Source of the DNA: Apus apus
Taxonomy: Eukaryota > Chordata > Aves > Apodiformes > Apodidae
Assembly: GCF_020740795.1 (NCBI RefSeq)
Contig: NC_067283.1
Coordinates: 4,553,659-4,617,658, forward strand
Direction: 5' to 3'
DNA length: 64,000 bases
A program made the position numbers and the translations under genes. The first letter of the stretch is position 1; each line of letters opens with the position of its first letter. This document shows positions 42,601-45,600 of this stretch, in pieces. The notes beneath the pieces were generated by a model. The model saw only the letters and a list, made by a program, of their open reading frames with translations. It was not told the DNA's origin and ran no database searches.

Positions 42601-45600
42601 ATCCCACTGCTGTGTGAAAGAAAGGTTTCCAACTCTTCTAACCTGTCAGATTTTCAAGTAAATAACATTTGGCATCCTTCCCATTCTGCTGTACAATACT
42701 AACAGCTCAACATAATTAATAAAGTTCACATTCAGAGTGCATCCTGATCTGCCTCTTATTTTTCATGATCAAACAACAAAGACACCAGTTTACCATGTAA
42801 TGTTTTCTGAAATCTCTTCACAGTAACCATGTCCTTCGTTAATTTAAAAGTTTTCCCTTCAGTTTCAACAGTGAATTCCCTGTAAAGGAAAAAGAAGTCA
42901 CTTAAAAGCTACAGCAATAAATAAACAAGCTGTATTTCCTTCATTGCATTGATTGGTTGACTTTAAGTGTGAGATGATAAAAGCCAGGGCAAATTCCAGA
43001 GATCAAGGGAAGATTGGGCATACTTATTAAGACATTTACGTTAATAATAAAATTACTACATCTTCATAATCATGGTGAACTCAGTCGTGGTTAGCAGTCT
43101 GAAGCAAACTCAGTCAGGAAAATGGAAGAATCTAGGATGAACCATATCACCAAAGGGAAAAGGGGAGGCACACAAACCAGGCATGTGTTGCAGACTGTGC
43201 ATCTTGTGGAGTGCATGGACTTACGAAAACGGCTGTGCCAGAAGGTACTCTGCATTTTCACAGATACCAAAAGGGAGGATACAGCACAGTTGTTTTATTG
43301 CTTGTTCCTAAAGTTTCTGATATGATGGTTTTGTCACTACTTTCACTTGCTCCCTGCTAACTTGCAACTCACACACACTCCTTGCTGAGGAGAACTTAGG
43401 CTACATTGACCTCTCACCCTGATAGGAAGCAAATGTCTTTATTCTTCTGTGCCCTAACAGAAGAGTGCTGCTGTAAACCTGAGGGCTTCACACCAGGGAT
43501 TCACACAGACATGGTGATGTGAAAGGCAGGTCTAACACACTGACCCTGTCAGCAGGTACTCACCCTCCTTGCTGAGGTGTTCAGATCACCACAATACAAA
43601 ACCCAACATGCTTAAGAGAAGTGTGTGCTAATCACCTGCATCTGGACCCAGTAACAAATGGGCTGAAGTTTATGAAGGGTTTGCTCTGAATGCAGCTACA
43701 CAAGTGGATGCTGAGTTTAAAGACAGCCAGGATTTGCAGTCCACTACCAATTCAAACCCAAGATATTGCTTATAATCCATCTACTGAATAATTTCAGTGG
43801 GATTCTGGAAGAAGTCAATTCACTTTCTTCTGATTTTGATGTGTGTACACATCACCATTTTCTGCAATAGTTTCTCTCCTCGTTTTGAGTGCTACTGTTT
43901 TTTTTCTACACTTACACATTCACAGAAACATAGAAGAAATAAATCTTAGCTCGGGGAAAAAAAAAAACAAACCACAACAAAAAACAACAAATGAAACAAA
44001 ACCAAAAAGATGTAAATGTTACCATTCTGGAATGCATTTATTGGCCTTGTACCATTTCAAGCAGGAAATAAAGTTTTTTATTATTGCCCAAATAGCCTTC
44101 TCATAACAAATACAGCTGCTTCAGGCACATCTGACAACTGCAGAGATCACTTGCATTTTCAGTTCCTGCTCATGTTAGGAACACAGGCAGACAGGTCGAG
44201 GAAAACCATACAATCTGCTGCCCCAATAAGTCAAAGGCTGTAACAGTACCTAAAGAATATCACTAAACATTGGAGGATACTCACACAGGTTCTACTTCTC
44301 ATTTAACTACTTTGTTCCATCACTCACAGAATTATTTGATTAATTTTAAAAATTGAGCTCATCACCATTTGCCAGCCCTGGTCACTGGTCAACTCTGACA
44401 CCAGAGTTGGGAAGCTGGTAAACATGTCCCATTCCTTGGAGGTGTCTCTCTTATGGGATGATCCTATTAATGCCAGAAGCTCATTCCCCCACACAAATAA
44501 AAATATACTTCAATACCATGGTTACATGGTATGTTGATGGATCACCAGCAATGACTTGGCAGAAGGGACAGAACTAAAACATTTCAGATGATCCACTCAG
44601 CCTACTCCTGAGGAAGCTGGTATGAAGTGGCTCAAATAAACCCAGCAGCACTTTGGGAACCCTCATCAGAGGTGTCAGAGAAAGGTACCACACACACAGC
44701 CAGCTCACCCTTTCTCACTGAGCAGCTGCTCCATCTCAGTGATGTAGCACTCATCACATGTGGAAAGGTATTCCATCACCACCTTTGCATCCTTCTTATA
44801 AGCTTTGCCAATGGCTCCCTTATTTGCCTCAAACTGAACAATGTTGACTGTTCTGTACAAGGCAGTTAAGGAGTCTGAGATGACAGAAAGCAGGGTCTGG
44901 TTCTTTTCCTATGTCAAAGCTAACTGCTGCACAACACAAAGAAAACTCCTCTGCTACTGGATTAAGGAACCTCCCTCCAAGAGAGGAAAAGATCAACTAA
45001 AAATACGCAAGAGCAGAAGGCCACAACTTTTTTAAACAGTACAACTCTTTTACAAGTACAGCTAGCAGCATCATCATGGACTGACATGGAGTACCCTGGG
45101 ATAGTAACCCCACATTCACATTTAAGCCATGCTCCAGTTAAAATAGAAAAGCCAGAAAAAGAACAAGCACAACCATAAGCCCCCTTTGCCCACCTGAGTA
45201 AAGTCATCCACATGCTCAATTTTTAAAGGTTACTTCCCAAGGTCATGCTGGCCTGTAGTTCTAGGTTTCCCTGTTAAATTTCCAGGTGTAACTTAAAATA
45301 GAGCTGCACAGCTTTCCAAGACTGCCAAATCACTTTTCATTTCAAGAGAATTTGGTTTATTCTGAAAGGATATAGGTTCTTTGAGAGGCTTCTCAGCTAT
45401 AAGAGGAACTTTGGTGGCACGGGCATGGCAGGAGAGGTCATAGCAGGAACGATCTGCACAGCCAACGATCTCAATCCAACCCTGAAAAAACAAAAGTAGA
45501 AGCTTTCACCACCTCACTTTTTTTGTCCACTTAACCATCAAATATGTTTATTCACTCCTTAAGCCCTCCCTGCTCCCATGACTGTTTTTTTCTACATAAT

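Follow-up and report, generated by a model that had tools for sequence, protein, structure and literature searches.

The GARS1 locus

The window, the whole 64-kb stretch of Apus apus DNA that was analysed, carries GARS1 on its minus strand. The human GARS1 protein was used as the tblastn query for exons and returned 20 rows, 16 of which were collinear and were taken as exons; the other four (E 0.35 to 8.9) were discarded as chance matches. Combined with a splice-site search in which five pairs of intron ends were allowed (GT-AG, GC-AG, AT-AC, AT-AG and GT-AC), this gave a model of 16 coding exons, numbered 2-17, and 15 introns:

36552..60446, minus strand: GARS1 coding exons 2-17, as modelled; exon 1 and the start of exon 2 lie outside the model

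The joined exons encode 665 amino acids, of which 602 are identical to the human protein in an ungapped alignment, although the ungapped join is partly a matter of construction because splice choices were scored against that same protein. GT-AG ends gave the best fit for 14 of the 15 introns, and intron 11 alone was best modelled with AT-AC ends.

The genome (1,100,375,756 bases in 110 contigs) was searched with the joined 85-residue product of exons 11 and 12. The two matches were the window exons themselves; this whole-genome search thus found neither a second copy or retrocopy of GARS1 nor a spliced copy displaying the exon 11/12 junction.

Several other features were observed in the window. 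Two open frames on the strand opposite to GARS1, 19385-20224 and 20707-21372 (plus strand), encode many C2H2 zinc fingers (Pfam PF00096; E 2.8e-28 for the first and 2.5e-39 for the second) and are perhaps parts of one zinc-finger gene. An inverted repeat has arms of 217 nt at 25907-26123 and 26431-26647 that are 98% complementary across a 307-nt spacer, and the frames 25845-26177 (minus) and 26383-27003 (plus) associated with it encode a nearly identical peptide; no Pfam family matched the frame 26383-27003. Similar translations recur in frames at 15067-15525 (minus), 16222-17082 (minus), 23777-24100 (plus) and 34343-34823 (plus), as exemplified by LLQAPSNLPFNTPRDGA at 34383-34823. These repeated stretches resemble the 3′ end of a LINE, which we take to be of the CR1 type. 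A search of the window against Rfam returned no family at gathering score.

Anatomy of intron 11 and the reading frame across its junction

The features at and around intron 11 are as follows.

47965..45482, minus strand: intron preceding GARS1 exon 11 (splice model)
45374..45481, minus strand: GARS1 exon 11, 108 nt, ending ...LKEP, with the next intron in phase 0 (tblastn and splice model)
44855..45373, minus strand, read 45373 to 44855: GARS1 intron 11, 519 nt, AT-AC, assigned to the U12 type
45366..45373, minus strand: U12-type 5′ splice site of intron 11, ATATCCTT, agreeing with the consensus at all 8 positions
44865..44872, minus strand: branch-site element of intron 11, TCCTTAAC, exact 8-mer
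44855..44856, minus strand: AC acceptor of intron 11 (GTAC)
44709..44854, minus strand: GARS1 exon 12, beginning RTVNIVQFE (phmmer against PDB, and splice model)
44708..42880, minus strand: intron following GARS1 exon 12 (splice model)

Exon 11 was 97% identical to residues 454-489 of the human protein by tblastn. Its terminal codons are AAA GAA CCT (KEP), ending at 45374, and those that open exon 12, from 44854, are AGA ACA GTC AAC (RTVN). Between them the intron opens with ATATCCTTTC and closes with TCCTTAACTGCCTTGTAC. An earlier note on this DNA had proposed an AT-AC intron inside GARS1, preceded by an exon that ends at a proline codon; both proposals were confirmed, with the refinement that the intron lies on the minus strand, is 519 nt long and is read from 45373 to 44855.

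Joining exons 11 and 12 at the AT-AC boundaries produced an 85-residue sequence that matched glycyl-tRNA synthetase in PDB (phmmer E about 1e-48). All eight of the distinct synthetase sequences among the matches listed were aligned over 85 residues each, and the five alignments displayed ran without a gap through KEP|KTVN. The matched sequences presumably include the human enzyme.

The same note had held that the frame is kept only with AT-AC boundaries, which proved too strong. Shifting both ends by 2 nt yields an intron from 45371 to 44853 with AT-AG ends that preserves frame and length equally and changes the junction product from EPRTVN to EPITVN. Minor introns with AT-AG ends do exist, being included among the A-type introns in PMC8280824. 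The shifted intron would, however, open with ATCCTTTC, a misfit to ATATCCTT, and would place isoleucine where the PDB sequences have lysine and the AT-AC junction gives arginine, lowering the protein score from 77 to 72. Use of the AT-AG ends was consequently judged very unlikely, and, given the misfit of the shifted donor to the U12 consensus, the AT-AC ends are to be preferred.

The 15 nt on either side of the intron 11 donor contained no GT or GC donor. The splice choices listed, which allowed donors within 15 nt and acceptors between -25 and +15 nt, all had an AT donor; in a search extended to 60 nt, the closest GT or GC dinucleotides were at -16 and +40.

Donor and branch site of intron 11

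The donors of U12-type introns are extended and hardly vary. The U12-type donor consensus ATATCCTT and branch-site consensus TCCTTAAC are both quoted in PMC2831892. Intron 11 was the only GARS1 intron whose donor matched the former without mismatch; the other 14 donors departed from it at 2-6 of the eight positions. The branch-site element was likewise present as an exact 8-mer, its branch A lying 11 nt before the 3′ terminus of the intron. In U12-type introns the branch A lies about 10-20 nt from the 3′ splice site. When the branch site was scored in a 9-nt form, CTCCTTAAC, it showed one mismatch to the consensus TTCCTTRAC, and this score of 1/9 mismatches was the best among the 15 GARS1 introns, the others having 2-5. 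The perfect branch motif with its A about 11 nt from the intron end, as described in the earlier note, was thus borne out for the 8-mer, and held to within one mismatch in the 9-nt form.

The donor 8-mer is unremarkable by itself, since it occurs once on the two strands of the window where about 1.4 occurrences are expected. Its evidential weight lies in its place, not in its mere occurrence: the chance of its falling exactly at the exon end defined by the protein was about 1.1e-5. The chance of TCCTTRAC lying within the 24 positions before the fixed 3′ end was about 1.1e-3. Under a first-order Markov model the joint chance of donor and branch site was about 1.2e-8 per intron, or roughly 2e-7 when multiplied over the 15 introns.

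These observations bear on two further explanations that would assign intron 11 to the major spliceosome. If a GT-AG junction of the U2 type were used, the AT-AC motifs would be coincidental. Nothing was found in favour of this, the GT/GC dinucleotides at -16 and +40 being ordinary for any sequence, and it is opposed by the missing GT/GC donor within 15 nt and by a joint chance of about 1e-8 for one intron; we regard it as so improbable as to be negligible. Alternatively, intron 11 could be an AT-AC intron of the U2 type. Such introns exist, according to PMC2831892, and those of the sodium channel genes have AT-AC termini in common with intron 11. That paper gives G at position +5 as a feature of this class, as the sodium channel introns have, whereas intron 11 has C at +5, inside a U12 donor without mismatch, and also carries a U12 branch site, so that this explanation is also extremely improbable, if slightly less so than the former. 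The GT-AG, GC-AG and U2-type AT-AC readings were accordingly rejected on the lack of a nearby GT/GC donor, the C at +5 and the U12 motifs.

Minor-spliceosome snRNA genes and the predicted splicing pathway

All four snRNA families searched for gave matches above the Rfam cut-off in the genome: at least one for U4atac, at least four for U6atac, at least one for U11 and at least one for U12, these counts being lower bounds because scoring was confined to the top candidates of a first look. None of the 14 control genomes matched in the U4atac, U6atac, U11 or U12 search. The U6atac matches (at least four), located on contigs C20 and C6, scored 135.5, 90.5, 74.7 and 41.8 bits; the 135.5-bit match is probably a working gene, and the other three may be pseudogenes.

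Inspection by eye indicated that the U11 match starts with AAAAAGGG, that the U12 match contains GTAAGGA, and that the best U6atac match contains AAGGAGAGAAGG on its sense strand, the locus having been printed in the other direction. Judged by complementarity, these U11, U12 and U6atac segments could pair with the TCCTTT of the intron 11 donor and with TCCTTAAC of its branch site. The roles of U11, U12 and U6atac in minor splicing are well established. The ATATCCTT donor of intron 11 would be recognized by U11 and subsequently by U6atac, U12 would pair with TCCTTAAC so as to bulge the branch A, and exon 11 would be joined to exon 12 in phase 0 by the minor spliceosome. From the sequence we infer that this is how intron 11 is actually removed.

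Taken together, the donor, the branch site, the spacing between branch A and acceptor, the reading frame, the different class of 14 of the 15 introns and the four snRNA families make the U12-type AT-AC reading well supported. We are nearly certain that intron 11 is an ordinary U12-type AT-AC intron, and its orthology to the catalogued U12 intron of mammalian GARS is very probable.

Predicted consequences for GARS1 expression

Translation of a retained intron 11 would encounter its first stop after 26 codons, and failure of splicing should therefore lower the amount of GARS1 protein. The class of the intron also suggests that the minor spliceosome is needed for GARS1 output. Depletion of CENATAC affected 92% of A-type introns and 24% of G-type introns, according to PMC8280824; given this bias towards the A type, intron 11 is predicted to be sensitive to CENATAC.

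An extension of this prediction would be that the level of GARS1 in motor neurons is set by CENATAC, which acts specifically on AT-AC introns, together with the minor spliceosome in general, and that retention of intron 11 alone leads directly from a fault of the minor spliceosome to motor neuropathy in vertebrates. This is a speculative and unlikely proposal. If intron 11 does limit GARS1 protein, this would connect disease of the minor spliceosome with motor neuropathy.

Comparison with known minor introns

A minor intron in GARS1 is already known in mammals. Gars was one of five U12-intron genes that were chosen from U12DB and whose splicing was measured in PMC3695530. The U11 and U12 snRNAs increased there from stem cells to neural progenitors, and splicing of the U12 introns did not differ significantly in four of the five genes, Gars included, the exception being Eed. 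Passages of PMC7612377 describe strikingly abnormal processing of the HARS and GARS U12 introns in two RNPC3 patients compared with four controls, and raise, as speculation, a link between the U12-intron defect and neuropathy or neurological disease. With the mammalian intron catalogued and the link to neuropathy previously raised, the finding at intron 11 is correct and ordinary.

According to Table 2 of PMC7367187, 18% of the U12-type introns of Gallus gallus and 26% of those of human are AT-AC, which makes AT-AC introns a minority subtype that is not rare within its class.

Minor introns are well conserved between human and chicken: PMC10639083 puts the conserved share of human minor introns in chicken at 94%, and a table in PMC2831892 has a row for Gallus that reads 391 and 369, with 0.944, under columns that are unlabelled in the passage. 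The word "gars" occurs 0 times in the main text of either paper. On the mammalian GARS U12 intron, the passages of the literature consulted made statements at the level of the gene only, with neither its position nor its end dinucleotides. Because these passages give the gene and not the position, it is the identity of the gene and the general conservation of minor introns that support orthology, and intron 11 is very probably orthologous to the mammalian intron. An intact AT-AC minor intron in the GARS1 of another vertebrate fits the known stability of such introns. A further source for the U12-type intron of mammalian GARS/Gars is reportedly Pessa 2006.

Compared with the AT-AC (A-type) minor introns of vertebrates, intron 11 has the same donor, branch site, AC acceptor and short distance from branch A to acceptor, and no difference from them was found. 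It shares with the minor intron of mammalian GARS/Gars both the gene and the U12 type, the two differing in the species that carries them.
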